From contig JAJBBF010000053.1 in assembly GCA_020532215.1 (NCBI GenBank), positions 1 through 47,441 on the forward strand: 47,441 nt of DNA, in the 5' to 3' direction. This document shows, piece after piece, positions 5,507 to 40,361 of the stretch; the stretch's first letter is position 1; the number at the start of each line of letters is the position of its first letter. Position numbers and translations under genes: made by a program. Source of the stretch: Candidatus Cloacimonadota bacterium. Lineage in GTDB: Bacteria; Cloacimonadota; Cloacimonadia; Cloacimonadales; Cloacimonadaceae. The notes beneath the pieces were generated by a model, which made no database searches, had not been told where the DNA came from, and saw nothing but the letters and a program-made list of their open reading frames with translations.

Positions 5507-7471
5507 CTACTTCTGCAGCATGATCTCCACGCGGCGGCTTTTGCTGAGCGCGGAAGGGACAGAAAGGGGATCCAGGGTTCTGCTGTTGCCGTAAGCTTTC
5601 CAGGAGATGCGTTTTTTGGGTATGCCTTTGTCGATAAGATAATCCGCGACAGACTTGGCGCGACGCTCGGAAAGCTGTTTGTTGAAATCGTCGGAACCCG
5701 TTTCCCAGGCATGGCCGGAGAGTTTAACCTTCAGATCTGGATTTGTGAGCAGGGTCATGACCACCAGATCAAGTTCAGATATTGCTTTGGGGTCAAGCTC
5801 CGCGCTTTCGGCGGCAAAGAGGATGTCCGCCAGGGAGAGTTGTGCCTTTTTCTCCAGCTTTTGCAGTTCAACGTCCAGCCTCAACTCGGATGAACCCTTC
5901 CCTGGGCTGAGTTCCTCTGAATGGACAAGGTAATCCTTTGCGTTGATCACCGCGATATAGAGAGGCGCCGAAGGCAGGGTACCCAGAAAGTTACCAAGCG
6001 AATTGGTGTTGAATATCTCCAGATTGCGCTGGCCTTCTGTCTCGCTTTGGATCTGCACTTCAGTGATCACCGGCTCCCCATATTGGTCTCGCACGGAACC
6101 TGCGATCCGGATCAGGCTTGGCGGAGTGAGTTCCGCGATCGGCTCAAACGCCTGAGGTTCGCGTCCCAGGGGTGCAGGAACGAAATCCGGCCCGGGGATA
6201 CCCTGTTTGATGGTTTCCAGGCTTTCGTCGATCCTGGCAAAGATGGATTCTTCGTCGGCTGGTTTCCGCGCAGGGGGAACATAGGTAACGATATCAACGC
6301 TGCGCACGGATCCGTCCTCTTCCTGCACCAGGTAACTGGCGGGCAGGGTGAGCGCGAAATTGAGCTGGTAGATCTTCTCGAATCCGCTCACCTGGCGGTC
6401 CGAACTCAAGTAGCCTTCGTTGCTGCCGCGAGCGTGGTAGAAATAGCGGTCGTTGCGGGTGGAATTGACCGGCAGCCCCAAGTTTTCGGGCAAAGACCAT
6501 TCCTGCCAATTGGTTCCCGCCCGGTAGGCTTTGAACAGGTCGTAACCACCAAAGCCGGGATGCCCGCGGGAAGAGAAATACAGGGTTCTGCCATCCCAAT
6601 CGAGGAAAGGCGTTTGTTCGTTTTCAGCGGTATTGATCATGGGTCCCAGGTTTTGGGGCTGGGTCCAGATGCCGCCGATCTTTTCGCTCACATAGATGTC
6701 CGTGCCGCCATAGCCGCCATCACGGGAGGAGGCGAAAAAGAGCAGGCGGTCTCGAAAGACCATGGGATGGGTTTCCACCTGCGAGGAGTTCAGCTGGGAG
6801 ATGTTCTGGGGTTGGAACCATTTATCGGTGCGGGGCACAAAATAGATGTCCCCGTCCCGCTTGTTGGCTTCGTAGTTGCCGAAGATCCAGGCGCCCTGCG
6901 GCTCTGCCGAGAAGCAGCCGAAGGCTTCATTTTTATCCGTGGAAAGCTCTTCCACCAGTTCCGGCTGGCCAAATCCCGAACGAAAGATCTCAGTCCGCCA
7001 GATGTTTTCCTTGTTTTTCCTGGCGGGGCGCAGAGAGGTGAAGTAGAGATACTTTTCCTCGGGATCCAGGACGGCGCCATAGTCGGAGTTGCGGCTGTTC
7101 ACATAATCCGGCAGGGGACGAAGGTTCACCCGGCTGAAGATCCTGGCCTGACGCTGAACGATGCGCAGATAATTGTCCACCTGGGTTTGATAGGCCGTAT
7201 CCTGGGAATCCTGGTATCTTTCAAACCACCGCATCGCGCTGGAAGTATCTGCCACCGCGATGTGCAAACGCCCCAACCAGTAATGGTATTCCGGGTTTCG
7301 GCCGTTCGCGGAGTCATCCGCTTTCAGAAATTCCCGGATGGCCCGGTCGTAATCACCACGCTGGTAATACTCCAGGCCTTCCTGGGCGTAGCGTGAACCG
7401 GGAGAACTGATCTGGCCTGAGGCCAAGACCGCCAGGCCAAGCAGAAGCATCAAGAACGCTGTTTTTTTCAT
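5507..7471 (-). CDS. OmpA-family protein with TPR, PD40 beta-propeller and CRD-like domain (PorE-like architecture)
   Basis: 654 aa; signal peptide, TPR (YYQRGDYDRAIREFLKADD), PD40-type repeats (LLFFASSRDGGYGGTDIYVSEK, LYFSSRGHPGFGGYDLFKA), CRD-like IRIAGSVRDQYGEPV, OmpA C-terminal LSERRAKSVADYLIDKGIPKKRI...SRRVEIML. Confidence 0.85.
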   Translation of the reverse strand: MKKTAFLMLLLGLAVLASGQISSPGSRYAQEGLEYYQRGDYDRAIREFLKADDSANGRNPEYHYWLGRLHIAVADTSSAMRWFERYQDSQDTAYQTQVDNYLRIVQRQARIFSRVNLRPLPDYVNSRNSDYGAVLDPEEKYLYFTSLRPARKNKENIWRTEIFRSGFGQPELVEELSTDKNEAFGCFSAEPQGAWIFGNYEANKRDGDIYFVPRTDKWFQPQNISQLNSSQVETHPMVFRDRLLFFASSRDGGYGGTDIYVSEKIGGIWTQPQNLGPMINTAENEQTPFLDWDGRTLYFSSRGHPGFGGYDLFKAYRAGTNWQEWSLPENLGLPVNSTRNDRYFYHARGSNEGYLSSDRQVSGFEKIYQLNFALTLPASYLVQEEDGSVRSVDIVTYVPPARKPADEESIFARIDESLETIKQGIPGPDFVPAPLGREPQAFEPIAELTPPSLIRIAGSVRDQYGEPVITEVQIQSETEGQRNLEIFNTNSLGNFLGTLPSAPLYIAVINAKDYLVHSEELSPGKGSSELRLDVELQKLEKKAQLSLADILFAAESAELDPKAISELDLVVMTLLTNPDLKVKLSGHAWETGSDDFNKQLSERRAKSVADYLIDKGIPKKRISWKAYGNSRTLDPLSVPSALSKSRRVEIMLQK

Positions 7472-7487: not shown

Positions 7488-8450
7488 TCAGAATCTCAGG
7501 ATCAGGGACAGGATGTGATCGTTGCCAAAGACCTCGTGGTTATTGTAGCGAAAAACATAGTCCAGCTGGAAATTGCGGAGCCTGATCCCAGTGCCGGCGG
7601 AGAGGCGGCCCCGGTTGTAACCCAGGCGCAGGCCGGTTTGCAGGGTGGAAAGGGCTTCTTCCCAGGAACTCTGCTCACTCACTGATACCACCGACAGCTT
7701 GGAATCCGCCTCGGGATCGCTGCCGATCGAGGTCCAATACTCGGCTCCAAAACAGAAATAGGGGTCTTCCTCCTGTTCCAGCTTGGCGTCGGCGGCCAGG
7801 GTCAAACCCCTTAAAGGATAAGCGGCCAACCCGGCTGAGATTTGGTAGGGAACCGTGGTATCATCAAATTTTCCATAGAGGTCGCGGGCCATCGCTCCGA
7901 TCTCCAGATACTGGTTGATGTCAAACTTCGCCCCGAGGTCCACCCCGTATCCCGTCTGCGTTTCGCCATCCAGGGTACTGAGGTAGAACTTGGGGCTGAG
8001 GCCAAAGCTGAACTTGCCGATGTTGTGCGCGTAACTGAGAGTGAAGTTGTTCTCGCTCTCGGAGAAAGTACCGGTGGGATTCTCGTTTTCGTCGTAGCCA
8101 TCGATATCCAGGACATTGGCGTTCACCCAGGACAGGGCCAGCGCGCCAAAACCAAAGCGGTTGCCGAAGGAGGCGTAATTGTGGCTGCGGCCGTAGCCCA
8201 TGCTGGCGTTGAGCATGGTGCCCACCTCAAAGTCCTTCATCCGCACCAATCCGGCAGGATTCCAATAGCCCGAGACAACATCGCTGGTCACGGTCGAACC
8301 GGCTTCGCCCATGGCGATAACGCGGGCGCCAACCCCCATGCGGGCGTAAGCCAGTAGGGAATTGTTCATGCCCTGGCCCAGCAGGGGCGCAGCGGCAAAT
8401 ACAAGCATGGCCAGGGCCAGGAAGTACTTCAGGTATATTTTCGTTTTCAT
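7488..8450 (-). CDS. PorV/PorQ-family (UPF0164-like) outer membrane beta-barrel protein
   Basis: 320 aa; signal peptide, ARMGVGARVIAMGEAGSTVTSDVVSGYWNPAGL motif, C-terminal aromatic ILSLILRF. Confidence 0.85.
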   Translation of the reverse strand: MKTKIYLKYFLALAMLVFAAAPLLGQGMNNSLLAYARMGVGARVIAMGEAGSTVTSDVVSGYWNPAGLVRMKDFEVGTMLNASMGYGRSHNYASFGNRFGFGALALSWVNANVLDIDGYDENENPTGTFSESENNFTLSYAHNIGKFSFGLSPKFYLSTLDGETQTGYGVDLGAKFDINQYLEIGAMARDLYGKFDDTTVPYQISAGLAAYPLRGLTLAADAKLEQEEDPYFCFGAEYWTSIGSDPEADSKLSVVSVSEQSSWEEALSTLQTGLRLGYNRGRLSAGTGIRLRNFQLDYVFRYNNHEVFGNDHILSLILRF

Positions 8451-8460
8451 CTTTGCCTCC

Positions 8461-11400
8461 TTATTTGACCGCGATCTTGATCACGCGTTCGGACCTGTTC
8501 ACGCCGTCATTGGCAACCACGCGGGCAAAATAGGTACCCCGCCCGACTTTGGCGCCGGCGGTATTTTTCAGATCCCAGGGAATCCGTATCTGGTTTGAAT
8601 TCTGAGTCTCGCTGGGTATTGTCTGTACCTTTTTACCGGCAAAATCGTAGATCGTGACGGTCAGGGTCACATTGTTGTTTCTGTTCAGGATCACCACGAA
8701 CTCGGTTTGATCCGTGGCGGGATTCGGCCAGGCATAGGACGCGTCGCTGATATCCAGATCCCCGGACTGGTAATACTCGACTGTGGAGGCGCTGGCAGGG
8801 CTCTCGGCTCCGTCGTAAACAGCGGTAACGTAATACTCGTAGGATACGTCCATCTCAATGCTGTAGTCGTCGTAGTAGTAGTTTCCATCCACCTGGGTGT
8901 TCACCAGGGAGGTGTTGATCTGGGCATATTCCGCGTCAGCCAGTTTGCGGCGGTAAACGTTGAACCCATCCAGGCCTTTGGCCGCCCCGGGCAGGTTCCA
9001 GAGAACGCGGATGTAACCGGCATAGGTGAAGCCGCGCACATCCACCGGCGCGGAGAAGATGGTGTAAGTGGCGCTGGCGACGGGGCTGGGCGTCCAGTCA
9101 GGTTTGTAAGCCCGGGCTGAGATCACCATATCCTGGGCGAAATTCGGAACCACGATCGGTTCCGAGTAGAGCCCGGATTCAGGGGTGGGATCCGTGCCAT
9201 CAATGGTGTAGCGGATCTCGGCCCCTTCGGTGGGAGACGAGATCACCACGAAGACAGGAGCGCCGAAAGTGCCACCCGGAGGAGAGAACACCGGCGGCGA
9301 AACCGTTCCGGTGATCGTATAGACCGCTGCCTGGGTTTCTGAGGGGATCCAGCCTTCGGCAAAACCCTTCGCTTTGACAGTGGTGGTGGCATTCTGAGGC
9401 AGAGTGATCGGCGCTGTGTAAGCCGCAGAATATACTGTAGGCTCGCTTCCGTCCGTGGTATAGCGGACAGTGGCGTTCGCGGGCAGGACCGGAACGGCCA
9501 GAGTTACGTTTTGAGCGCTTTGGTATGTTCCGGGGGTTGGGCTGAACAGGTCTTCCTCCAGCTGAACCTGGCCGGTAACGCTGTAAACACCGGCCCAAGG
9601 CTGGCTGGGAATCCAGCCGTCCTTGAAGGCGCGGATCGTGATCGTGAAATCGATGGAATTCAATCCAATGCTGACAGGCGCAGCAAAGACAGGCGATGCT
9701 TCCGTGGGAGTGGAACCGTCCGTTGTATAGCGGATCGTGCCGCCCGTGGGATCCGTACCGCCAACCGAACTGACGCTGATCGGCTCAGTGTATACTCCCG
9801 GAGCCGGGCTCAGATAAGGCGGCAGCAGCTGCATCTGTCCGGTGAGGACATACTCGGCTGTGTAGGTTTGGCTGGGGGTCCAGCCAGTCCTGTAAGCTTT
9901 TACCTTCACGGTAACGTCCGCGGGAGCGAAAAGCTGGATCGGCTGCGTGTAAGCCGGATAGGACTCATTGGGCTCATTGCCATCCAGGCTGTAATGCAAG
10001 GTGGCGCCGGCAGGGGCTGTCTGGGTGTTCAGAACCACCGCGATGTCAGTTGTATAGGTTCCGGCCGCTGGAGTGAAAACCGGAGCCGGGATAGTAACTG
10101 TACCTGTGATGGTATAGTAGCCAACGTACACCGGGCTGGGAGTCCAGTTGGTGGCAAAAGCCCGGGCCCGAAGCTCGTAGCTGTTGTTCAGCTGCATGGG
10201 GATCGGAGAAGTGTAGAGAGGCGAATCCGCCAGGGGTTCACTGCCGTCCAGGGTGTAGCGGATCTGGGACCCGGCAGGAACAGTGGAGGCGTTGATGCTG
10301 ATGGATTGGGCGCCCGGATAGGTTCCGGGAGCGGGATCGAAGACCGGCGCCGCGATGCTGGCCTGCCCGGTGATGGTGTAGGTGGCGGTGTGGGTCGCGC
10401 TGGCGGTCCAATCCGTCTTGAAGGCCTTCACCTTGATGGTGGTGTTGCTGTTTAGGGGCAGGCTGATCGGAGTTGTGTACACAGATGATGCAGCCGTGGG
10501 CTCGCTGCCGTCGGTGGTATAGCGAATGGTGGCATCAGCCGGTATCGTTTCGGATACAGAGATGATCTGGCTGGTCTGGTAGATCCCTTCGGGTGGCGTG
10601 AACACCGGGGTCTGGAACACGATCTGCCCGGTGATCACGTAGGTCGCGGTCACGGTCGCGCTGGGCGTCCAGTTTGCCTTAAAGGCCTTCACGCTGATGG
10701 TGGTGCTGCTGTTCAAAGGCAGATTGATCGGCGCGGTGTAAGCCGGGGAATTCTCCGTGGGCACCGATCCGTCCAGGGTGTAGCGCAGCGTTGCCCCGGC
10801 CGGAGTGGTGCTGGTATTCAGAGTGATCGATTGCGCGGTCTGATAGGTACCCGCCGGCGGAGAAAACACCTGCGCCGGCAGCTGCACCTGGCCGGTGACG
10901 GTGTAGGTGGCAGAGTAAACTTGGCTGGGAGTCCAGCCGGCCAGGAAAGCCACGGCCTTGACCGTCAGCGTGGTGTTCAGCGGTATTATTACCGGAGTGC
11001 TATAGATCGGCGAAGTAGCTGTAGGATCGCTGCCGTCGGTGGTATAGCGGACCGTTCCCCCCGCCGGGCTGGTGGAGGTGTTGATCACCACGGACTGGGC
11101 GGTTTGATAGGTCCCGGAGGCCGGAGTGAAGACAGGTTCAACGATGCTGAGCGCACCCGTGATGTTGTAGGTGGCGCTGTAGGTCTGGCTGGGCAGCCAG
11201 TTGGTGAGATAGGCTTTCACCTTGATCGTGGTCAGGGAGCCCAAAGCCAGCTGGATCGCGGTGCTGTAAACCGGAGAAGTTGCTGTCGGCTCGCTACCGT
11301 CCAGGGTGTAGCGCAGGGTAGCGCCAGCCGGGGTGGTGAGCGTGTTCAGGGTCACCACCTGCGCGGTCTGGTAGGTTCCCGCGGGCGGGGTGAAGACAGG

Positions 11401-14400
11401 CTCGGCGATCGTCACCTGGCCGGTAACGGTATAAACCCCGGTGTGGATCTCGCTCGGCTGCCAGTTGGCGGCGTAGGCGCGCACCCGGATGGTGATGCTC
11501 TGGCCGTTGCTCACCTGGATCGGAGTGCTGTAAACGGGCGAGCTTTGGTTCGGGTCGCTGCCGTCCAGGGTGTAGCGCAGGGTGGCGCCGGCCGGGATCG
11601 TGGTGGTGTTGATCGCCACGGACTGCGGCGAGGTATAGAGCCCCGGGCTGGGGTTGAAGACAGGCAGGGTGATGGTCACGGCGCCGGTGGTGGTATAGTT
11701 TCCGGTCTGGATCTCGCTGGGCGCCCAGTTGGGTTTGAAAGCCCTGACTTTAAGGGTCAGCGAGGTTTCCAAGGGCAGATCGATCGGGGCGCTGTACTGC
11801 GGCGATAGCTCGGTGGGATCGGTGCCGTCGATGGTATAACGCACAACCGCGTCGGCCGGCGTGGTGCCGTTTACCGTGATCTGCTGGGCCGTGGTGTAAA
11901 CTCCGGGAGCGGGTGAGAAAACCGGGGTCTGGAACGCGACCTGGCCGGTGATCAGATAGGTGGCGGAAACGGTTGCGCTGGGCAGCCAGTTGTCCCTGAA
12001 GCCTTTCACCTTAATGGTGGTGGTGCTGTTCAATCCCAGCTGGATCGGGGCCGTGTAGGCTGGCGAGAACTGGCTGGGCTCGCTGCCGTCCAGGGTGTAG
12101 CGCAGGGTCGCTTCCGTTGGCAAGAGAGGAGGATTCAGGGTTATTGACTGAGCGGTTTGGTAGGTGCCGGCGGCAGGATCGAACAGCACGTCCGGCAGAG
12201 TGACCTGGCCGGTCATCACATAGGTGGCGCTATAGAGCGGGCTGGCGATCCAGTTTTCCCGGAAAGCCCTCGCTTTCAGGGTTATGGTGGCGTTCAAAGG
12301 CAGATCTATCGGTCCGGTATAGACCTCAGAAGTGGTCTGGGGATCGCTGCCGTCGGTGGTATAGCGGATGGTCGCGTCGGCCGGGATGGGATCGTTGATG
12401 CTCACCGTCTGGGCTGTGGTATAAACTCCGGCGGCCAGGCTGAAAATGGGAGGTGTGATGATCACCTGCCCGGTAACGATATAGGTTTCGTGGGTGGTGG
12501 TGCTGGGTTGCCAGCCCGGCTTGAAGCCTTTGGCGTTGATGGTCATCGTGCTGTTCAGCGGCACCACAATGGCAGTTGTGTAGAGGGTGGAATCCTCGTC
12601 CGGCTCGCTGCTGTCGGTGGTGTAGCGGATCGTGGCTCCGGGCGTGGAGGTGGTAAGCACCACAGGCGTGGCCTGGGTGTAGATTCCGCCCACCGGAGAG
12701 AAACTTACATCGGCCACGGTTCCGGTCACCGTATAGCTTGCGGAGACCACCGGGCTCGGGTTCCAGCCATCCCGGTAAGCCATGGCCTGGATGAACAGGT
12801 TGCTGTCGGACGGGATGTTAATCGGAGCCATGTACAGCGTTCCGTTAGTGGGTGATGGCACCGTTCCGTCTGTGGTATAGTGGATCAGGGCGTTCTCGGT
12901 GGTTGTGGATATCTCCACCTGGATCGGTTGATAGTAGGTTCCCGAAGGATATGAGAACATCGGCGCGGCGACCTCCGGCACGATGATGTCGATCAGGTAG
13001 CTGGCGTTGGAGATCAGCGAGGTGTTCATACCGGTTTTATAGGCGATTGCCTTGATCGTGGTGGTCTCGGAGATGTTCACCGGGCCGCTGTAGATCGTTC
13101 CCACCGTTTCGGAAGGTTCGGTGCCGTCAATGGTGTAGCGGATGGTGGCCTCGGGGGTTTGGGTGCTGATGGTCACCTGGATCGCTTCGTTGTAGATACC
13201 GGCCGGGGGATCGAAGACAGGGGTCTGGACCGTCTCAATCGGGATCACGATCACATACTGCACCGTGGCGATCAGGGAGGGATCATAGCCGTCCTTGAAC
13301 CCGCGCGCTTTGATGGTTACATTGCTATCCACCACAAAACCGCCCGCATAAACTGTGCCGTTCTCCAGAGAGGGTTCGCTGCCGTCTGTGGTGAAAACCA
13401 GTGTGGCATCAGGAGTGGTGGTGCTCATGGTAACGGTTTGCGCGGCATTATAGACTCCGCTGGGCGGCAGGATCACCGGCGTGGCCACATCCGGAAGCGG
13501 GATGTTGATATCGAAGTCCGCGCTGGCTATCGCCGAGGGATACCAGTTTTCCTTGGACGCGATGGCCTTCAGCAGCAGATCCTGATCCACCAGGACGGGA
13601 TCCAGGGGATCAAAGGCCGGGCTGGTGCCGGGGATGGGATCGCTGCCATCCAGGGTATAGCTGATCAGGGCTCCGGGTGTAACAGTGCTCAGATTCACAT
13701 ATTGGTTTTCCGTAAAGGTGCCGCCATTGGGAACGATGCTCACCGGGCTCACGTAGAAGTTGTACACAGCGGCGCTGATGTTCGAGGGTTCCCAGTTGGC
13801 GCGGTAAGCCCTGGCTTTGAGGGTGGTGTTCTGATTTATCTGGACAGGCGTGGAATAGATGGTCCCGTTCAGTTCGCTGGGGTCGCTGCCGTCCGTGGTG
13901 TAATAGATTGTGGAACCGGCCGGCAAGGTGGTGATGGCAACGCTGAAGGGGCTCAGGTAATCCCCGCCGGGGACGGAAAAGAGCGGATCGGAGACCGGCC
14001 CGTTGATCACATAGCTTTGGGATATTACGTTGGAGCTGATCCAATTGCCGCGGTAGGCGATGGCCTTCACCGTTGCCGTGGTAGTCAATTGGAAGGGAGC
14101 CAGATACAGGTCTCCGTATTGCGGTGTGGGCTGGCTTCCGTCCAGGGTGTAGCGGATGCTGGCGCCGGCTGTGCCAACGCTCATCGTGATGGTCTGGGCG
14201 GAGGCGTAGCTTCCGCCGGCTGGACTGATGGCGGGATTGCTGACCACGAAGAAGTATTCCGCGGTGGCAACCGCCGAATCCAGCCAATTGTCCAGATAGG
14301 CGTAGGCTTTCACGGTCGTGTTGCCTTCCAGCGCGAATGGCGCGGTATAGGTGATGCCGTTATCCAGCGAGGGCTCGCTGCCGTCCAGGGTATAGCGGAT

Positions 14401-17400
14401 GGTGGCGGCAGCCGGGATCACGCTGATGCTGATTGTCTGAAGCGTGTTGTAATATCCGGCCGTGGGACTGATGATGGGAAGCGCCACTGGTCCGTTGATC
14501 ACATAGGAAGCAGTGGATACGGAGGAGTCGTTCCAGCCGTCCAGCCAGGCAAAGGCCTTGACAATGGTATTGGCCGAGATCTCGATCGGGCTGTTGTAAA
14601 CGCTACCGTTATCCTGGGTGGGGGTGCTGCCGTCCAGCGTGTAAACGATGGTGGCCGCGGCAGGGGTGGCGGAAAGCGCGACCATCTGCGCTTCAGCGTA
14701 TTGCCCGGAAGGCGGGTCGAAAACTGGGGCGCTCACGGTTCCGGTGATATAATACTGCGCGTCGGTGACCCCACTGGCGTTCCAGCCTGTTTTATAGGCT
14801 TTGGCGCGCAGCAGCGTATCCGCGGCAATGTTCACCGGAGTGCCGGCCACATAAATGGTTCCGTTGGTCTGGCTGGGTTCGGAGCTGTCGCTGGTATAAT
14901 AGATGGTGGCATCGGGCGGATTCACCGAGATGTAAACATCCACCGGGGAGGTATAGGTTCCGGGTCCCGGGGTGAAAACGGGGTTGGCGATGTTGCCGAT
15001 GATGGTATAGATGGCGCCGTGGATCTCCGAGGGGCGCCAGTCCGTGCGGTAGGCTCTGGCCTTGAGGGTGGCGCTGCTGTTGATCAGGATCGGTCCGTCG
15101 TAGGTGGATCCGTATTCCAGGCTGGGATCCTGGCCGTCCAGGGTGTATCTGATCACCGCGTCCGCGGTGGCGGAGCTGATGCTGACCGTCACGGATACAT
15201 CGTGCGTGCCGCCGTCGGGGTCAAATGCGGGCAGGCCAACCGTTCCGGTAACCTGATAACTGCGCTCGGCCACGTCGCTGTTGATCCAGCCGGCCTGAAC
15301 GGCGATGGCTTTGATGGTATAGCTGGTTTCCAAACCGATGGGGATCCCGGCCACAGGGTCGTAAAGGGTGGAGGCTTCCGTGGGTTCAGAGCCATCCGTG
15401 GTATAATGGATGGAAGCTTCAGGGGCGCTGGTCAGGCTGAGCCGCACCACGATCGGGTCAAAGTAGAGCCCTGCCGCAAGGTCAAATTCTGGCGCGGGCA
15501 GGATGCCGATGCTGTAGATCCCTTCGGTGATGGAACTGGGATCCCAGTTTTCCTTGAAAGCGCGGGCTTTCACCTGATGCAGGCCGTTGGCCAGGGAAAC
15601 CGGGCCCTCGTAAAGGAATGACGCGCGCGTGAGCGGAGAAGGTTCGCTGCCGTCCAGGCTGTAATAGATCGCCGCGTTAGCGGTGCCGGTGCTCATCGCC
15701 AGCTGGATCGGGGCGGAAAAACTGCCGGGCAGGGGGTCGAAAACCGGGGCTTCGACCGTGCCGGTGATCGTGAACAGGCCCTCGTGGATGTCGCTGGGAT
15801 AGAGGCCGGGATACTGGGCCAGGGCTTTGACCGTGGTGGTCTCGCTGACCGGGATGGGCGAGGTGTAAAGCAAGCCTGTGGCGGCGTCCGGGTCGCTGCC
15901 GTCCAGGGTGTAATAGATCGAGGCTCCGGCGGGAAGGGTGGAAGCGCTGATGCTCACCGAGACCGGCGTGGTGCTGTATCCGGGCGCGGGGTCGAAAACC
16001 GTGCCGTTGGCATAGGGCAGAAAAACCGTTTTGGTGCGGACATCGTAGTAGTAGCTGAAGGTTTCGCTGGCCTGCCAGTCGCTGAGGTAGGCCTTGAAAG
16101 TGATCCAGGTGGGGTTGGTAAGCTGGATCTGCTGTCCGCTGTTGTAGACCTGCGCGTTGGGGTTGTCCGGGCCGGGCAGGCTGTTATCCAAAGTGTAGTA
16201 AACTGTGGCGCTGGCAGGAGCTACCATCAGTCCTGTGATTTCCACAGCCAGAGACTCGCCCTGGTCGATGAGGTAAAACTCACCATCCGGAAGCGGCGGC
16301 GGGGTCATGCTGTGGGAAACTATCTGCACGGTTCCCGTAACCTGGTAGGTTTGGGATACGATCGCGCTGTCCAGCCAGCCTTCCCGCGCGGCCAGGGCTT
16401 TGATCATCAGCGTGGTTTCCGCCGCAACCGTGATCGGCAGAACGTATTCCTCGGTTCCGGGGGAGCCGGGAACCGGATCGCCGCCGTCCAGCGTGTAATA
16501 GATCGTGGCCGCCGGGTCGGAAGAGTTGAGGGTAACCTCAAGCGGCGCGTAATACAAGCCTCCCAGAGGGTTGAAAACAGGATCGGCAACCGTTCCAGTG
16601 ATCCGGTAGGACTGGCTGGTGACCTGCGAGGGCGGGAAATCCGGATAGGTGAAGAAAGCCTGGATGGTCACGTTGTTTTCCACATCCCCAAGCGCGTCCA
16701 CAGCGATCGGGGCTGAATACACCGGCGAAGTTTCCGTGGGCGGGGTACCGTCCGTGGTATAGTGGATCACAGCTCCTTCAAAACCGGCCGGGGGAGCCAG
16801 CGTGACGCTGATCCCGCTGGTGTAGGTGCCGCCCGCGGGATCGAACAACGGTCCGGAGGGGCTTACATTAACCGTCCAGATGATGCTGTCCGTAGCCTCA
16901 GCATCCGAGACTTCGCAGCTTAGGGTCTGGGTGCCGGGAATGCTGAACTGCAGCTCCAGGCTGGCGGTGGTGGAAACCACCTCGGAGAAGGGAACCCCGT
17001 CCTGGCTGCCGCTGTGCGTCCAGGTGTAGCTAAGATCGTCGTTTTCCACGTCTTCGGCGGTGACCGCGAAACTTAGCGTGTCCCCCTGGTCGATGTTCTG
17101 CGTTAGCTCTTCCGGCTGCCAGTCCACTATCTCCGGGGGATCGTTGATGTTCAATACATTGATATAAATGGTCTGAGAGCTATAGGCGTTGGACAGCCTG
17201 TCCACAGCCGTCAGTTCGTAGCTGGCGATGCCGTTGTAATCCTGCTGGGGCGCGAAAGTCACCAGGGAACCGGTTCCGGCAGGTTCCTGGCTCACGTCGA
17301 TGGGGTATTCGGCAAAAAGCACGTTGAGGTCGAAGTTCGTGGGGTCGGCCGAGTCGATGCAGCTGATGTAGTCCTGAAAATCTATCTGCAGGGCTGTTTC

Positions 17401-17937
17401 TTCGTTGGTGAAGAAATTGTTGCCATCCGGCAAACCGCTCCAGACAGGCGGATCGGGTACCGGGGTCACATTCAGGCGGATATTGCCGATCACAAAATCA
17501 CCGCTGATCGGTTCAGTGGCTACCAGAAAGAGGATCTCCCCTCCATTCCAGTTCGCGTTGATGGGCTCAAACTGCAATTTCAGGGGGTTGCCCGGATCCG
17601 GTTGGGTTACGGTGAAATGAACCGGATCAAAGTAAAAAGACAGGGTCAAGGCCACATTTTCCGGATTATCTATGTGCCGGGTGAAATCCTTGATCCAGGC
17701 CGTGTCTTCCAGAAACAGCCCGGTTTCGGGATCGGCAATATCTGTCGAGTCCGGAAGGTTGTAAGGCGAAGCTACGAAGTTAAAGGAAAAATCCCTCGTC
17801 TGGGCGTTGCTGGTGGCGATCAGTTCCAGGATCTCCGCGGGGATCTCCGCATCGGAACCGGTGGCCAAAACTCCGGATTGCGCGAAGAGAGCGCAAGCGC
17901 TCAGCATCACGATCACAACAAGAAAAAATCTATTCAT
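8461..17937 (-). CDS. Giant secreted surface protein with tandem CHB_HEX_C/Fn3-associated-type repeats, FN3-like domain and FlgD-like T9SS-type C-terminal sorting domain
   Basis: 3158 aa; signal peptide MNRFFLVVIVMLSACALFAQ; ~30 repeats of consensus VFxPxxGTYxxxxxVxxxxxxxxAxIRYTLDGSEPxxxxxxYxxPIxxxxxxTIKAxAxxxxWxPSxxxxAxYxITGxV; C-terminus SYAWPNPATDQTEF...GRGTYFARVVANDGVNRSERVIKIAVK. Confidence 0.9.
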   Translation of the reverse strand: MNRFFLVVIVMLSACALFAQSGVLATGSDAEIPAEILELIATSNAQTRDFSFNFVASPYNLPDSTDIADPETGLFLEDTAWIKDFTRHIDNPENVALTLSFYFDPVHFTVTQPDPGNPLKLQFEPINANWNGGEILFLVATEPISGDFVIGNIRLNVTPVPDPPVWSGLPDGNNFFTNEETALQIDFQDYISCIDSADPTNFDLNVLFAEYPIDVSQEPAGTGSLVTFAPQQDYNGIASYELTAVDRLSNAYSSQTIYINVLNINDPPEIVDWQPEELTQNIDQGDTLSFAVTAEDVENDDLSYTWTHSGSQDGVPFSEVVSTTASLELQFSIPGTQTLSCEVSDAEATDSIIWTVNVSPSGPLFDPAGGTYTSGISVTLAPPAGFEGAVIHYTTDGTPPTETSPVYSAPIAVDALGDVENNVTIQAFFTYPDFPPSQVTSQSYRITGTVADPVFNPLGGLYYAPLEVTLNSSDPAATIYYTLDGGDPVPGSPGTEEYVLPITVAAETTLMIKALAAREGWLDSAIVSQTYQVTGTVQIVSHSMTPPPLPDGEFYLIDQGESLAVEITGLMVAPASATVYYTLDNSLPGPDNPNAQVYNSGQQIQLTNPTWITFKAYLSDWQASETFSYYYDVRTKTVFLPYANGTVFDPAPGYSTTPVSVSISASTLPAGASIYYTLDGSDPDAATGLLYTSPIPVSETTTVKALAQYPGLYPSDIHEGLFTITGTVEAPVFDPLPGSFSAPIQLAMSTGTANAAIYYSLDGSEPSPLTRASFLYEGPVSLANGLHQVKARAFKENWDPSSITEGIYSIGILPAPEFDLAAGLYFDPIVVRLSLTSAPEASIHYTTDGSEPTEASTLYDPVAGIPIGLETSYTIKAIAVQAGWINSDVAERSYQVTGTVGLPAFDPDGGTHDVSVTVSISSATADAVIRYTLDGQDPSLEYGSTYDGPILINSSATLKARAYRTDWRPSEIHGAIYTIIGNIANPVFTPGPGTYTSPVDVYISVNPPDATIYYTSDSSEPSQTNGTIYVAGTPVNIAADTLLRAKAYKTGWNASGVTDAQYYITGTVSAPVFDPPSGQYAEAQMVALSATPAAATIVYTLDGSTPTQDNGSVYNSPIEISANTIVKAFAWLDGWNDSSVSTASYVINGPVALPIISPTAGYYNTLQTISISVIPAAATIRYTLDGSEPSLDNGITYTAPFALEGNTTVKAYAYLDNWLDSAVATAEYFFVVSNPAISPAGGSYASAQTITMSVGTAGASIRYTLDGSQPTPQYGDLYLAPFQLTTTATVKAIAYRGNWISSNVISQSYVINGPVSDPLFSVPGGDYLSPFSVAITTLPAGSTIYYTTDGSDPSELNGTIYSTPVQINQNTTLKARAYRANWEPSNISAAVYNFYVSPVSIVPNGGTFTENQYVNLSTVTPGALISYTLDGSDPIPGTSPAFDPLDPVLVDQDLLLKAIASKENWYPSAIASADFDINIPLPDVATPVILPPSGVYNAAQTVTMSTTTPDATLVFTTDGSEPSLENGTVYAGGFVVDSNVTIKARGFKDGYDPSLIATVQYVIVIPIETVQTPVFDPPAGIYNEAIQVTISTQTPEATIRYTIDGTEPSETVGTIYSGPVNISETTTIKAIAYKTGMNTSLISNASYLIDIIVPEVAAPMFSYPSGTYYQPIQVEISTTTENALIHYTTDGTVPSPTNGTLYMAPINIPSDSNLFIQAMAYRDGWNPSPVVSASYTVTGTVADVSFSPVGGIYTQATPVVLTTSTPGATIRYTTDSSEPDEDSTLYTTAIVVPLNSTMTINAKGFKPGWQPSTTTHETYIVTGQVIITPPIFSLAAGVYTTAQTVSINDPIPADATIRYTTDGSDPQTTSEVYTGPIDLPLNATITLKARAFRENWIASPLYSATYVMTGQVTLPDVLFDPAAGTYQTAQSITLNPPLLPTEATLRYTLDGSEPSQFSPAYTAPIQLGLNSTTTIKVKGFRDNWLPSATVSATYLITGQVAFQTPVFSPAPGVYTTAQQITVNGTTPADAVVRYTIDGTDPTELSPQYSAPIDLPLETSLTLKVRAFKPNWAPSEIQTGNYTTTGAVTITLPVFNPSPGLYTSPQSVAINTTTIPAGATLRYTLDGSDPNQSSPVYSTPIQVSNGQSITIRVRAYAANWQPSEIHTGVYTVTGQVTIAEPVFTPPAGTYQTAQVVTLNTLTTPAGATLRYTLDGSEPTATSPVYSTAIQLALGSLTTIKVKAYLTNWLPSQTYSATYNITGALSIVEPVFTPASGTYQTAQSVVINTSTSPAGGTVRYTTDGSDPTATSPIYSTPVIIPLNTTLTVKAVAFLAGWTPSQVYSATYTVTGQVQLPAQVFSPPAGTYQTAQSITLNTSTTPAGATLRYTLDGSVPTENSPAYTAPINLPLNSSTTISVKAFKANWTPSATVTATYVITGQIVFQTPVFTPPEGIYQTSQIISVSETIPADATIRYTTDGSEPTAASSVYTTPISLPLNSNTTIKVKAFKTDWTASATHTATYTITGQASIAAPVFDPAPGTYPGAQSISINASTVPAGSQIRYTLDGSEPLADSPLYTSPIPMQLNNSYELRARAFATNWTPSPVYVGYYTITGTVTIPAPVFTPAAGTYTTDIAVVLNTQTAPAGATLHYSLDGNEPNESYPAYTQPIQLFAPADVTVKVKAYRTGWTPSQTYTAEYVLTGQMQLLPPYLSPAPGVYTEPISVSSVGGTDPTGGTIRYTTDGSTPTEASPVFAAPVSIGLNSIDFTITIRAFKDGWIPSQPWAGVYSVTGQVQLEEDLFSPTPGTYQSAQNVTLAVPVLPANATVRYTTDGSEPTVYSAAYTAPITLPQNATTTVKAKGFAEGWIPSETQAAVYTITGTVSPPVFSPPGGTFGAPVFVVISSPTEGAEIRYTIDGTDPTPESGLYSEPIVVPNFAQDMVISARAYKPDWTPSPVASATYTIFSAPVDVRGFTYAGYIRVLWNLPGAAKGLDGFNVYRRKLADAEYAQINTSLVNTQVDGNYYYDDYSIEMDVSYEYYVTAVYDGAESPASASTVEYYQSGDLDISDASYAWPNPATDQTEFVVILNRNNNVTLTVTIYDFAGKKVQTIPSETQNSNQIRIPWDLKNTAGAKVGRGTYFARVVANDGVNRSERVIKIAVK
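9046..16848 (-). repeat. Tandem ~260-bp coding repeat array (about 30 units, mean 86.7 aa)
   Basis: Repeat units delimited by hand in the translation; 2601 aa cover 30 recognisable YTLDGS/YTTDGS units. Confidence 0.9.
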
Positions 17938-18341: not shown

Positions 18342-18412
18342 ATCATTACGGGATCAATACGGGATCAATACGGATTTCATCCGTATTGATCCCGTATTGA
18401 TCCCGTAATGAT
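18342..18412. repeat. Perfect 33-bp inverted repeat, 5-nt loop, built of ACGGGATCAAT tandem units
   Basis: atcattacgggatcaatacgggatcaatacgga-tttca-tccgtattgatcccgtattgatcccgtaatgat; all 33 positions pair. Confidence 0.97.
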
Positions 18413-21372: not shown

Positions 21373-23283
21373 TCACTTTATGATGTTTATTTTTTTGTTG
21401 AGGATGGTGGTTTTCCCTTGGGGAAGGGGGTGTTCGACGCGCAGCAGATAGATCCCAGAAGCGGGAAACTGGCTCGCGGACAGGTTCAGCTCATCGCCGG
21501 CGCCGGCAATTTCGATTATCTTCTGGCCGCGGAGGTTGTAGATCCGCACCGTTCCCAGCTTTCGCCCCCCGGCCAGGCTGATCCGCAGGCTGCCGTTTCC
21601 CCTCAGGGGGTTGGGGCCCAGCCTGAGCTCGGGAACCGGACAGACCTCATCCTGGGAAGCGACCACATCGGTGAAATCGCTGTAGGCGGAATAAAGGATC
21701 CTGCCGCCCCCGGCCAGCTGCAGCCAATAATAGAGGCGGTAACCCTGGGCAAGTTCCGCCAGCGAAAGATTGCTGAGCGAAACGTTGAAACTCACGCTTA
21801 GTTCCTCGCCGGCGCCCAGAGGCCCGCTCAAAGGCTCCCCGTGTGCGATCCAGCGGTCTATCACATAGCGTTCGGCGCCATCGAAAAAGACCTTTCTGAA
21901 GATCCCCACGTTAAGGCAGCTGGAGCTTACGAGGTTATACTCGTTGGCGGTGGCCCAGAGCAGGGTGTTGGTGTTGGAAAAGGTGATCTCCGCGGAGATC
22001 AGGTCGTTCTGGGGAATGTGCTCCAGGCGGCAGTTCGAGCCTGAAACAAAGGTTTTAAGTGCCTGGGCGTCCTGGCAATGCTGCTGATATTGGCCGGTGT
22101 AAGAAGCGGAAAAGCCGTTCAGGCGCAGATCCCCGTTGACCACGGTGCGGGGCAGGGTGTTGAAATTGTACCAATTGAATCTGATCTGGGCGGGCACGTT
22201 AGCCAGGGAATCGCTGAGAATGGGAAAATAGTTCAGGATGTGGACAGCGGGAAAATCAAAGGGATCCTGGGTGGCGGTTATCTGCACCGAATTGCCGGCG
22301 CGGAGGAAGTTTTCCGCCAGCCAGACCGGGTATTCATCGGCCAGGCTGAAGCGGTTGATGGTGATGCGGTTGTTGGCCAGAGGTTCCGCCGGCAATGAAG
22401 GCGCGATCAGGGTATCCAGCACCGCCCTCAGTTTCAGCTGCAGGGGCTGATCCGGCAGGCTGAACTGGTGGCCGGCAAAACCGGGGCTCTGGGCGTTGAA
22501 AACATATTCCGAGCGCGGCGGGATCGGCTCCGGCACCCAAACGGTGTCCTGCAGGACAAAGGCGCTTTCCGGCGAAGTGACAGTGATCATTACATTCGCG
22601 TCATAGACGGTGAGATCGGAATGATTGTAGATGGCGAAAGTGGGCCCCACCTGCTGCCGGGGCTGCAGGCTGCCCTCAAGCTCGAACTCCGTTAGCTGCA
22701 GATCGGGTCCGCTGAGCACAAAATCACCGGCCAGGCCGAAGAGCAGTTCGGAATTGAAACCGGCCTCGGCGAGGCTCTGGAAATAGGGGTTGACGTCGTT
22801 GGTATTCCAGTAATAGCTGCGTGAACCCCCGCCCGCGGAGGCAGCCACGAAGCGGTTGGCGAAATTCGTGTTATAAGTGACCACCAGCCAGAGGGAATCG
22901 CCTTGGACGGGGTTCGAAAACGGGATCTCCAGTTGATTAGAGGTCACCTCCGCCTGGGCCGACGCCAGGCTGGTTCCGGGGCCGCCATAGAAATCCGTGA
23001 ACAGCTCCACCCGCACGGAATCCCCTGTTTGCGGCAGCCAGAGCAAAGCCTTGCTGACCAGGAATTCACTGGCCAGGGATTGCGGATAGACCTCGGCGAA
23101 ATTGAAGCGCACCGCCCAGATGTTGGAGCCGTAGAAATGAAAGTCGTCGGTGCCGCTGTGGTAGGAGAAGTTGTATTCCCGGCTGTCCTGAGGCCAGACC
23201 CGGCTGCCGCTGCCCGGCCGGCTTTCCAGGGCCAAGGCCAGGCTAAAGGATAGGCAGAGAAGCGCCAGCAGGGCGTATTTCAC
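21373..23283 (-). CDS. Secreted protein with type A T9SS-like C-terminal sorting domain
   Basis: Signal peptide; C-terminus LRLGPNPLRGNGSLRISL...VRIYNLRGQKIIEI...SGIYLLRVEHP...KKINIIK. Confidence 0.8.
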   Translation of the reverse strand: MKYALLALLCLSFSLALALESRPGSGSRVWPQDSREYNFSYHSGTDDFHFYGSNIWAVRFNFAEVYPQSLASEFLVSKALLWLPQTGDSVRVELFTDFYGGPGTSLASAQAEVTSNQLEIPFSNPVQGDSLWLVVTYNTNFANRFVAASAGGGSRSYYWNTNDVNPYFQSLAEAGFNSELLFGLAGDFVLSGPDLQLTEFELEGSLQPRQQVGPTFAIYNHSDLTVYDANVMITVTSPESAFVLQDTVWVPEPIPPRSEYVFNAQSPGFAGHQFSLPDQPLQLKLRAVLDTLIAPSLPAEPLANNRITINRFSLADEYPVWLAENFLRAGNSVQITATQDPFDFPAVHILNYFPILSDSLANVPAQIRFNWYNFNTLPRTVVNGDLRLNGFSASYTGQYQQHCQDAQALKTFVSGSNCRLEHIPQNDLISAEITFSNTNTLLWATANEYNLVSSSCLNVGIFRKVFFDGAERYVIDRWIAHGEPLSGPLGAGEELSVSFNVSLSNLSLAELAQGYRLYYWLQLAGGGRILYSAYSDFTDVVASQDEVCPVPELRLGPNPLRGNGSLRISLAGGRKLGTVRIYNLRGQKIIEIAGAGDELNLSASQFPASGIYLLRVEHPLPQGKTTILNKKINIIK

Positions 23284-31956: not shown

Positions 31957-32160
31957 AGCCCGGAGGGCGTAACAACTTAGCCCAGGGTGTAGCGCAGCGG
32001 AACCCTGGGTTTTGGCGTACCAATGTGCAAACGAGCCCCGAGGGGCGGCACAAATCTCTGCCAGGTTTGGAGTGTCGCCCCTGTGGGGCTGATCTGCCTC
32101 ATTTGTCCCGTTGACCCGGGGTTGCCACCCCGGGCTAATATGGGTCGCCCCTGCAGGGCT
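31957..32160. repeat. REP-like palindrome cluster: two inverted copies of a three-hairpin module
   Basis: Six palindromes: GCCC-gga-GGGC; CCCAGGGT..ACCCTGGG; GCCCC-ga-GGGGC; GCCCC-tgt-GGGGC; CCCGGGGT-tgcc-ACCCCGGG; CCCTGCAGGG. Confidence 0.85.
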
Positions 32161-38068: not shown

Positions 38069-38911
38069 TTAGAATTTGTAGCCAAGATTCCCGTAGAGGG
38101 TACCCGGCAGGACCGCGTGAGTGGAATAAGAGAGGTCAAGCTCGATGCCTCTTACGTTCAGGCCGATGCCGGCGTTCCAGGTGGCGGGGTTGGAATGGAC
38201 GCCGAAACGCACCGCCAGCGGTTCAAAGAGGCGAACTTCCACGCCGCCCATGAATTCGGTTTCCTTGGCGAAGTCTTTTTTCACTTCGATGCTGGTGATC
38301 ACGTTTTCATAGGGGATGTAGGAAACTCCCAGGGCCAGTTTGCTGGGCAGGGTATGCTGGTTGGTGTCGCCCATCACGGCCTGGTTGAGGTTGCTTACGC
38401 TGAAACCCAGCTTGGTGCGGCCATGCAGGAAGGCGGTGGCGCCGAAATCGATCCCGATGGCGTCGTCAGTCTCTTCCTCGATGAATTGCAGGCGGTGGTA
38501 GTTCACGCTGTAGCCAACGCTGATCTGGGAATGGATGTCCTTCTGCAGATTGAAGGCGTGGCCAGCGGTCCAGATCTGTTCGCTCATCAGGTTTTCGTCT
38601 TCGAAAGCCACGTCGAACAGCCGGGCGCCAAAGGCCAGGGTGCCAAGCTTTTTGGGCAGTTGGAAACCCAGCGCGGCGGTTTTATACTCGGAGAAGGGCT
38701 TGCCGTAGAGCTGGCTGAAGCCGACCTGAACTTCCAATTCCAGGTTCGTGAGCCCGGCGGGGTTGAAATAGAGGGAGTTCACGTCATCCGCCACGCCGGT
38801 GTAGGCTCCGCCCATGCCGCGGGCCCGGGCCGAGGGGATGTAATCGTCGAACACAGCCAGCAGCAGGGCCGTCTGGATCAGGATGAGGGTGATGAATAAG
38901 ATCTTTTTCAT
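38069..38911 (-). CDS. PorV/UPF0164-like outer membrane protein
   Basis: 280 aa; signal peptide, ARARGMGGAYTGVADDVNSLYFNPAGLTNLE, C-terminal GNLGYKF. Confidence 0.85.
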   Translation of the reverse strand: MKKILFITLILIQTALLLAVFDDYIPSARARGMGGAYTGVADDVNSLYFNPAGLTNLELEVQVGFSQLYGKPFSEYKTAALGFQLPKKLGTLAFGARLFDVAFEDENLMSEQIWTAGHAFNLQKDIHSQISVGYSVNYHRLQFIEEETDDAIGIDFGATAFLHGRTKLGFSVSNLNQAVMGDTNQHTLPSKLALGVSYIPYENVITSIEVKKDFAKETEFMGGVEVRLFEPLAVRFGVHSNPATWNAGIGLNVRGIELDLSYSTHAVLPGTLYGNLGYKF

Positions 38912-38927
38912 GTTTTTCTCCCTGCGC

Positions 38928-40361
38928 TTACTTAAGGATGGATTTGATGACCACCGGCTGCACCGTGACTTCCTTGAGGCCGGTGCTGCGCTCTATCACT
39001 TCCAGATGGCAGTAATAAAGGCCGATGGGCAGGCGGTTCATCATGTAATCCCGGCCGTCCCACTGGAAACTTTCGATGCCGAGGGCGTTGCTGATATTGC
39101 GGTTCACGGGAGTTGCCACCAGGCGTCCCTGGGCGTCGTAGATGCGCACGATCGCCTTTACGTTGATCCCCGCAGCCGAGGTCTTGCAGCCATATTCGAT
39201 GGTGATTTTCTCGTTCAGCTCCGGGTTGAAGATGTTGCGGGCGTTATTGGGATTGGTGATGTTCAGCCAGGCGATGCTGCTGCGGATGGGGACCAGCAGC
39301 TTGCCGTTGTTCAGGGATTGGATGGCGGTGGCGTCGTAGGAAAAGGAAACCAGCTCGATCACCGATTCTCCATAGCTGGTGGGGGTAACGTTCAGTTTAA
39401 AAAGCACCTGGTCGTCGCTTGTGGAAGTGATCGGCTCTTGGGATTGGTAAACCACATAGAGCGAATCACCGGCCACCGATAGCGTGTATTGCGGATCGAA
39501 AGCTGTCATGGTTTCGGTGATATCCAGGCTGTTGAACTGCACCTTGTCCGGATCGAGGCGGATATAGGCGCTGTAGGAAGCCACGCCCCATTCAGGTTTG
39601 AGGCGCGAGGTGAGGATGTTCACCTCCACCGGGGTGTCGATCTCGGCGTTGGTAGTCTGCACGCGCACCGTGGCGTTGGAGACATCGTCGATCTGGACCA
39701 GGTCTGTCATTTCGCGGGGATTTACTCCGAAATAGCTGAAGGAATAATCCACCACACCCTGGATGCGGGCCCAGTTTTGACCCACGCTCATCTGCGGCCA
39801 GGAAAAGCCGCTGCGGGGAAAACACTGGTCATCGATCTGGCAGGCGCCGCTGCCGTCGGTCACATAAAACTCGCCATAGTTATTGGGAGTGGCGGTGATG
39901 GTGAGGTTTTCCACCTTCACGAAAACGCTTTCCCACTGCTCGGCATCCGGCCCGGTGAGGCTGCCTGTGGTGATCTGGGTCGCCGGAGGCAGAGGATTGC
40001 CCTGGCTTAACACCTGGAAACCGGTGGTCGGAGACATTTCGGTGAATTCGTAGTACTCGGTGATGGTGCCCGTTACTTGAACAAGGTCGCCGCGCTGGGG
40101 CGCGTATTGGTTCGTAAAGATCAAAAGCCCGCTCCAGGGGCCGCCTTCGGGATCCGAGATCACGAAACCCTTGTTCGTTGTGCTGGTGCCGGTGTAAAAC
40201 ACTTCGGCCACCACGATGCCTTCCACCGTTACCACGCTGCCAGAATAAGGCGAAGCGCCGCTGGCCGCGGTGGTGTACTGGACGTCATAGCAGCTCAGCG
40301 GGTCTGCCACCAGCAGGCCGGAAACTGCCAGTGCCAGGACGCAAAGTAAAATGTATTTCAT
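38928..40361 (-). CDS. Secreted protein: OB-fold-like domains, cohesin-like domain, FlgD-like T9SS-type CTD
   Basis: Signal peptide; VVTVEGIVVAEVFYTG...GDLVQVTGTITEY OB-like; AYIRLDPDKVQFNSL cohesin-like; FNPELNEKITIEYGCK...VRIYDAQGRLV...IGLYYCHLEV...VVIKSILK. Confidence 0.75.
   Translation of the reverse strand: MKYILLCVLALAVSGLLVADPLSCYDVQYTTAASGASPYSGSVVTVEGIVVAEVFYTGTSTTNKGFVISDPEGGPWSGLLIFTNQYAPQRGDLVQVTGTITEYYEFTEMSPTTGFQVLSQGNPLPPATQITTGSLTGPDAEQWESVFVKVENLTITATPNNYGEFYVTDGSGACQIDDQCFPRSGFSWPQMSVGQNWARIQGVVDYSFSYFGVNPREMTDLVQIDDVSNATVRVQTTNAEIDTPVEVNILTSRLKPEWGVASYSAYIRLDPDKVQFNSLDITETMTAFDPQYTLSVAGDSLYVVYQSQEPITSTSDDQVLFKLNVTPTSYGESVIELVSFSYDATAIQSLNNGKLLVPIRSSIAWLNITNPNNARNIFNPELNEKITIEYGCKTSAAGINVKAIVRIYDAQGRLVATPVNRNISNALGIESFQWDGRDYMMNRLPIGLYYCHLEVIERSTGLKEVTVQPVVIKSILK

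Follow-up and report, generated by a model that had tools for sequence, protein, structure and literature searches.

What is the role of a 3,158-amino-acid (aa) protein built around a long tandem array of small repeats, encoded on the reverse strand of a 47,441-nucleotide contig of a Candidatus Cloacimonadota bacterium (GenBank assembly GCA_020532215.1, contig JAJBBF010000053.1; the whole stretch is hereafter the window)? An earlier note, made from the letters of the window, had recognised the repeats and suggested a stalk or adhesin. We find that the protein ends in a sorting domain of the type IX secretion system (T9SS) and that its gene is followed by genes for an outer-membrane barrel and for a PorE-like periplasmic protein. 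The sorting domain and the partner genes, overlooked earlier, tell more about the identity of the protein than the repeats do. We give a probability of roughly two in three to the reading that this is a static, wall-tethered fibrillar surface protein with a dedicated barrel and a PorE-like anchor. This reading rests on a signal peptide, 30 immunoglobulin (Ig)-like beads, a type A C-terminal sorting domain (CTD), T9SS genes and a conserved cassette, all of them read directly from sequence.

The giant gene and its two downstream partners

The window belongs to a metagenome-assembled genome, designated G000, which comprises 1.95 Mb in 178 contigs at 80% completeness; other genomes carry labels of the same form. 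The features of the locus, in window coordinates, are:

8461..17937, (-), giant T9SS surface protein, whole gene (open reading frame, ORF, of 3,158 aa)
17878..17937, (-), signal peptide, about aa 1-20 (MNRFFLVVIVMLSACALFAQ); sequence inspection, and an N-terminal helix in the structure model
16855..17877, (-), N-terminal region, aa 21-361: a stretch modelled with low confidence, followed by cadherin-like (Cadherin_4/5, Big_9) and PKD-like domains; orthologue alignment
9043..16854, (-), array of 30 CHB_HEX_C_1 units, aa 362-2965; Pfam, unit anchor and unit profile
12457..16854, (-), units 1-17, diverged from one another, order fixed genus-wide and one-to-one orthologous; reciprocal best matches
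9304..12456, (-), units 18-29, more similar to one another, most of them of 87-89 aa (range 84-89); the sole segment with copy-number change between species
9043..9303, (-), unit 30, a diverged terminal unit, orthologous in relatives; interspecies unit comparison
8740..9042, (-), Fn3-like linker, about aa 2966-3066; sequence inspection
8461..8739, (-), T9SS type A CTD, aa 3067-3158, of a once-per-genome subtype; TIGR04183 and cassette CTD profile
7488..8450, (-), PorV/PorQ-family outer-membrane barrel, 320 aa, starting 10 bases after the giant gene; NF033709 and alignment
5507..7471, (-), PorE-like periplasmic anchor, 654 aa, with TPR, PD40 propeller and OmpA peptidoglycan-binding domain; Pfam and NF052230

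The giant protein combines a stalk of folded repeats with a surface anchor, as a fibrillar adhesin would. Secretion and stalk anatomy are thus supported, whereas the adhesin part of the earlier suggestion is something that we infer, since no known ligand-binding domain was found. The Pfam search detected no catalytic or other enzyme domain, in agreement with the earlier note. Orthologues of 1,533–4,329 aa occupy the same position in relatives, and a search with the N-terminal 361 residues recovers orthologues along their full length in most of the family's genera. A contig search with the single N-terminal sequence gave no match; the same search with an N-terminal alignment matched JAAYQD010000141 and PHBO01000002, both from Candidatus Cloacimonadota.

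The barrel matches the PorV/PorQ family model NF033709 over its full length, with 86 bits in the window and 82.3, 89.2, 90.3 and 100.9 bits in orthologues (cut-off 90). It is neither a PorV nor a PorQ equivalog, scoring 31.2 bits with NF033710 (cut-off 250) and 62 bits with NF033711 (cut-off 220). Membership of the PorP/SprF family (PF11751) was considered and rejected at 16.7 bits and an E value of 0.005, below the cut-off of 22.3. Sixteen bases after the barrel gene, on the same strand, lies the PorE-like gene. Its product has the Pfam domain order TPR_16, PD40, OmpA, which is the layout of PorE, a protein described as having four domains (PMC9143113); against the PorE equivalog model NF052230 it scores 208.8 bits, below the equivalog level of 600.

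The C-terminal domain is a distinct type A subtype

The T9SS type A model TIGR04183 (cut-off 23) matches the last 92 residues of the giant protein with 44.4 bits. The type B model TIGR04131 gave no match to the CTD in the window at E values up to 10, and only 15 and 19.9 bits (cut-off 35) with the corresponding CTDs of G037 and G077. Using a profile built for CTDs of the cassette (the giant gene and its two partners), the giant protein scores 161 bits, compared with 49.8 for the runner-up CTD in G000. In 10 of 10 genomes tested, each with 45–91 CTDs, the cassette CTD ranked first and was clearly separated from the rest. Genomes outside the profile also fit, with 97 versus 54 bits in G021 and 80 versus 58 bits in G077.

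The T9SS itself is present. The translocon protein SprA was found in all 24 good relatives and also at G000:C62, where it is over the TIGR04189 cut-off with its neighbours in frame. PorU is over the cut-off in 12 of 13 genomes, and in G000 it is split into two contig-end pieces. Several other PorV-family genes are also carried by G000. As a separate observation, the window holds a further T9SS type A cargo at 21373–23283 (-), of 636 aa, which scores 28.8 bits with TIGR04183 and has no other recognised domain.

The cassette is shared by four families of Cloacimonadota

The co-oriented cassette consists of the giant protein, the PorV/PorQ-family barrel and the PorE-like TPR/PD40/OmpA protein. 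In the eight loci read first, the barrel and PorE-like genes lay directly downstream of the giant gene every time. With the barrel as query, strong matches across the phylum came from families f1, f2, f5, f9, f10 and f12, nearly always with a single match in each genome. The loci read in f1, f2, f5 and f9 had this same gene arrangement, and their giant proteins are of three kinds. The first kind carries CHB_HEX arrays of 15–42 units (family f1). The second has other Ig-like domains, resembling Big_13/Big_3, and no CHB_HEX unit (G021, G026, G031, G063 and G070 in f1; G037, G077, G091 and G097) and spans about 4,500–6,500 aa, with 5,634 aa in G037, 6,463 codons in G021 (G021:C1) and 6,581 codons in G077 (G077:C474). 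The third, of about 2,560 aa, is of cadherin/Big_9 type (G054, G093, G095). Within f1 the first two kinds are mutually exclusive. Judged from gene content, the anchor genes are retained and the stalk is exchanged.

The three genomes G054, G093 and G095 have no PorE-like gene after the barrel; there the barrel gene itself carries three OmpA domains as a fusion, which indicates that barrel and wall binding belong together. As far as a gene fusion can tell, this supports a tether to peptidoglycan. T9SS-bearing relatives such as G011, which is 99% complete, have no cassette; the cassette is therefore an accessory and not a core part of the T9SS.

The giant protein might instead be an ordinary type A cargo, collected by PorV, cleaved at its CTD by PorU and then attached to lipopolysaccharide or released, with the barrel and PorE-like genes being a spare T9SS module that lies next to it by chance. 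That the CTD is type A and not type B by profile would fit, as would the presence in G000 of PorU and of further PorV-family genes. However, the order of giant, barrel and anchor genes is kept in four families despite wholesale replacement of the stalk, the CTD of the cassette forms a subtype of its own, present in one copy, and species without the cassette retain SprA. We consider this explanation unlikely, although not negligibly so.

Elsewhere in the window, a second pair of secreted protein and barrel occupies 38069–40361 (-). The cargo (38928–40361) has a FlgD-like C-terminus and a partial ExeM/NucH-type match, and the barrel (38069–38911) belongs to the PorV/PorQ family with 76 bits. A PorV-family barrel also lies beside a single cargo at G000:C16 and at G003:C15. 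Such barrels adjoining single cargos may be common in the phylum.

A proposed wall-tethered fibre

As a static fibre tied to the cell wall, the giant protein would cross the outer membrane through SprA, and its CTD would be collected and held by the barrel of the next gene, not by the general PorV. The TPR/propeller part of the PorE-like protein would bind this barrel from the periplasm while its OmpA domain grips peptidoglycan. The tethered fibre would be roughly 100 nm long, as estimated from 30 beads of some 4 nm each. The CHB_HEX beads would serve as a stiff stalk carrying the cadherin/PKD-like N-terminus outward, probably for cell–cell or cell–particle contact, and stalk length would drift through gain and loss of five-unit blocks.

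Several points weigh against this reading. A type A CTD normally uses the common PorV and PorU cleavage, and that of the giant protein could do so too. In the G000 species the barrel falls slightly below the PorV/PorQ family cut-off (86 versus 90), and its weak, sub-threshold PorP/SprF match counts in the same direction. Pfam recognised no ligand-binding or adhesive domain in the giant protein, the N-terminus giving only cadherin/Big_9/PKD-type matches. Every genome compared is a metagenome assembly. Finally, the complex, the tether and the display roles of the three proteins are predicted from their genes. A more specific proposal has three parts: a type A signal served by a dedicated PorV-type barrel and not by the common PorV, a tie to peptidoglycan via a PorE-like protein or fused OmpA domains, and a swappable fibre that in one lineage is made of five-bead super-repeats. 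We regard this proposal as evenly balanced.

The repeat array is old in the window species

The earlier note had placed about 30 CHB_HEX_C-like units at 9046–16848. Counting by the YTxDGS anchor and by a profile of the units gives exactly 30 in both cases, at 9043–16854, with a spacing of 81–100 aa. Pfam assigns the units to CHB_HEX_C_1 (PF13290; 1,367 bits) and Fn3_assoc (PF13287; 1,146 bits), over cut-off and in 29 stretches each, and the unit profile search reaches a solved beta-hexosaminidase, 6q63, with an E value of 7e-7. The repetition is far beyond chance. Four other ORFs in G000 contain CHB_HEX_C_1, with one or two copies each. A literature search on CHB_HEX_C_1 arrays gave nothing relevant.

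Two subfamilies had been suggested, with the later units sharing a TGQV linker and a GTYQTAQ start and representing a recent expansion. The shared motifs are looser than this. TGQ follows nine units (17–19, 21, 23–25, 27 and 28), and GTYQTAQ is present in units 19, 22, 23 and 24 only. The late units 18–29 are nevertheless more alike, with a mean aa identity of 0.49, compared with 36% among early units and 36% between early and late units. Random sets of 12 units reach 0.384 +/- 0.020, and none of 20,000 attained the late-block value (p = 5e-5). A tree of the 30 units resolves no clean subfamily, as the late units need two label changes, and an approximately unbiased (AU) test neither rejected nor demonstrated a single late-unit clade (p 0.24).

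The late block is not recent, because matches at four-fold degenerate sites (late block 0.47, early block 0.45) are near the level given by codon usage (0.32–0.59 by codon box) and the closest pair of units, 19 and 24, has only 70% DNA identity. Saturation at these sites rules out a recent expansion in the G000 species, and that part of the earlier claim holds in the relative G001. Relative to the early block, the late block is thus either younger or more homogenised, yet it is old in this species.

Predicted structure of the beads

Structure prediction of adjacent repeats, which the earlier note had proposed as a check, gave six all-beta beads for units 19–24 (mean predicted local distance difference test score, pLDDT, 90.4; predicted template modelling score, pTM, 0.45, so that bead-to-bead orientation is uncertain). 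The N-terminal model was weak, with a pLDDT of 70 and three sequences in the alignment, and too poor for a fold search.

Segments of Aureispira GhpA are the best fold matches to units 19–24 in the PDB (E 2.7e-13). GhpA forms grappling hooks that are built from a T9SS-secreted protein (PMC11205867), which raises the question of whether the fibre is a similar device for capture or predation. The template modelling (TM) scores are 0.3–0.4 at 11–15% identity, however, and the fit to many unrelated Ig chains is almost as good. Homology at the sequence level was rejected, as the unit profile search finds no GhpA chain, and there is no evidence of a hook or an oligomer. We conclude that, as far as the model goes, the match reflects shared bead architecture only; a capture or predation device is most improbable.

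Copy number changes in steps of five units

The species comparison uses one genome per species, and perfectly identical repeat blocks may be collapsed in any of the assemblies. Units 1–17 are reciprocal best matches in conserved order in G002, G003, G001, G007 and G004. Within the genus, the array has 25 units in G007, 30 in G000 and G002, and 35 in G003 and G001; in G007 the array is complete and the gene is cut after it, and G002 has the same length as G000 (3,158 aa). Every difference amounts to five units and falls within the late block. Units 20–24 are present in additional copies in G003 and G001, and G007 is without units 18–22; its 25 units may reflect either a loss or the ancestral number. 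Complete arrays across the family have 15, 16, 25, 27, 30, 30, 32, 35, 35, 36, 39, 40 and 41–42 units. Copy number, which according to the earlier note may vary between strains, varies between species, and the changing segment moves in five-unit steps rather than by single units. In G028 (G028:C154:1-13000) the array is interrupted: an 896-aa N-terminal ORF holds 6 units, and a further 16 lie in a separate frame after it; this is either a broken gene or an assembly error.

The copies in G001 pair within the species (20/25, 21/26, 22/27, 23/28 and 19/24), and those of G003 pair within the G000/G002/G003 group. Since they pair in different groups, they stem from separate events, or from one event that was later homogenised. 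The five-unit copies of G001 are 98.5% alike in protein and 83% at four-fold sites, and those of G003 84% and 54%. This synonymous divergence makes the copies too old for an assembly artefact, which was rejected on these grounds for G001, G003 and G030, and indicates that they are held by purifying selection. G030, from another genus, has a five-unit duplication of its own (units 21–23 versus 26–28, 74%). In a permutation test, a separation of five was supported in G001 and G003 (p 0.0005 each) and in G030 (p 0.002; 0.0095 over all separations), and was suggestive only in G000 (p 0.0045; 0.058 over all separations). It was unsupported in G002, G007, G016, G018, G067 and G072.

Could the step be structural, with five beads making up one turn or binding period, so that only whole periods are tolerated? 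All within-genus changes are of five units, a five-unit duplication recurs in G030, and titin has such super-repeats (PMC10665226). Nevertheless, G018, G067, G072 and G016 show no five-unit signal, with lengths such as 39, 40, 36 and 32, so that a period common to all members was rejected; the bead-to-bead orientation is uncertain in the model; and a recombination register accounts for the step without structure. We regard a structural period as improbable. The simplest account is the register itself. An old five-unit duplication would have left units most alike at a distance of five, and later unequal exchange would keep that register.

A range of 15–42 units between species, together with the younger five-unit duplication of G001 (aa 0.985, four-fold sites 0.83), could also suggest a length-variable protein of the periscope type, with a number of repeats that shifts rapidly from strain to strain. 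Periscope proteins require highly similar DNA repeats (PMC8201768). Such similarity occurs in a single G001 block, whereas the best unit pair in the window reaches 70% DNA identity with synonymous sites saturated. In addition, units 1–17 are frozen one-to-one throughout the genus and two species share 30 units. Rapid variation of this kind is distinctly improbable. The array offers a clear example from nature of super-repeat evolution in a bacterial stalk, comparable to that of titin, in which single events can be read.

Other features of the window

A perfect 34-base inverted repeat with a 3-base loop, made of 11-base direct repeats (GGGATCAATAC), lies at 18342–18412, in the intergenic space between the giant gene and a divergent gene for a THUMP/RlmL-like methyltransferase. 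The corresponding region of G002 and of G003 showed no perfect hairpin of this kind. A match to the small RNA Acido-Lenti-1 lies at 32115–32160 (+), with 49.1 bits compared with the Rfam gathering score of 37.

Comparison with known systems

The beads share their CHB_HEX_C_1/Fn3_assoc family with chitobiase/beta-hexosaminidase-type enzymes, whereas the giant protein has 30 copies and no enzyme. Like Aureispira GhpA, it is a large T9SS-secreted chain of Ig-like beads, although no sequence relation between the two was found. With the periscope proteins SasG, Rib and Sgo_0707 (PMC8201768) it shares a variable number of folded beads that project an N-terminal part; it differs from them in its low unit identity, a mostly frozen array, changes of five units, a Gram-negative-type envelope and secretion by the T9SS.

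Among T9SS shuttles, PorV with its type A cargos offers the same barrel family and CTD type. All type A CTDs are described as using PorV, while type B CTDs use dedicated SprF-like shuttles, some of them tied to the wall by PorE (PMC12618676). In contrast to PorV, the cassette barrel is far below the PorV and PorQ equivalog scores and is co-encoded with one giant cargo. If our proposal is true, a dedicated PorV-type barrel for a type A signal would be new and would break the PorV-only rule.

The closest parallels in organisation come from Flavobacterium johnsoniae and P. gingivalis. Five F. johnsoniae operons each bring together genes for a PorE homologue, for a type B substrate and for the shuttle of that substrate; their proposed role is the anchoring of static adhesins (PMC12618676; PMC9143113). 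F. johnsoniae Fjoh_3952-3951-3950 and P. gingivalis PG1035-PorP-PorE have the same gene order of surface protein, own barrel and PorE-like protein, for which a static peptidoglycan tether is proposed (PMC12618676; PMC9143113), and the cassette shows the same fixed adjacency and order of substrate, shuttle and PorE-like genes. It differs in having a type A CTD, a barrel of the PorV/PorQ and not the PorP/SprF family, exchanged stalks and a host phylum, Cloacimonadota, of its own. The best reading, by analogy, is that the cassette would work like the type B/SprF/PorE operons without being a member of them, as CTD type and barrel family differ. Were this so, the tether would have evolved with either barrel family, and a concrete, testable surface system would be at hand for an uncultured phylum that occurs in anaerobic digesters and lakes.

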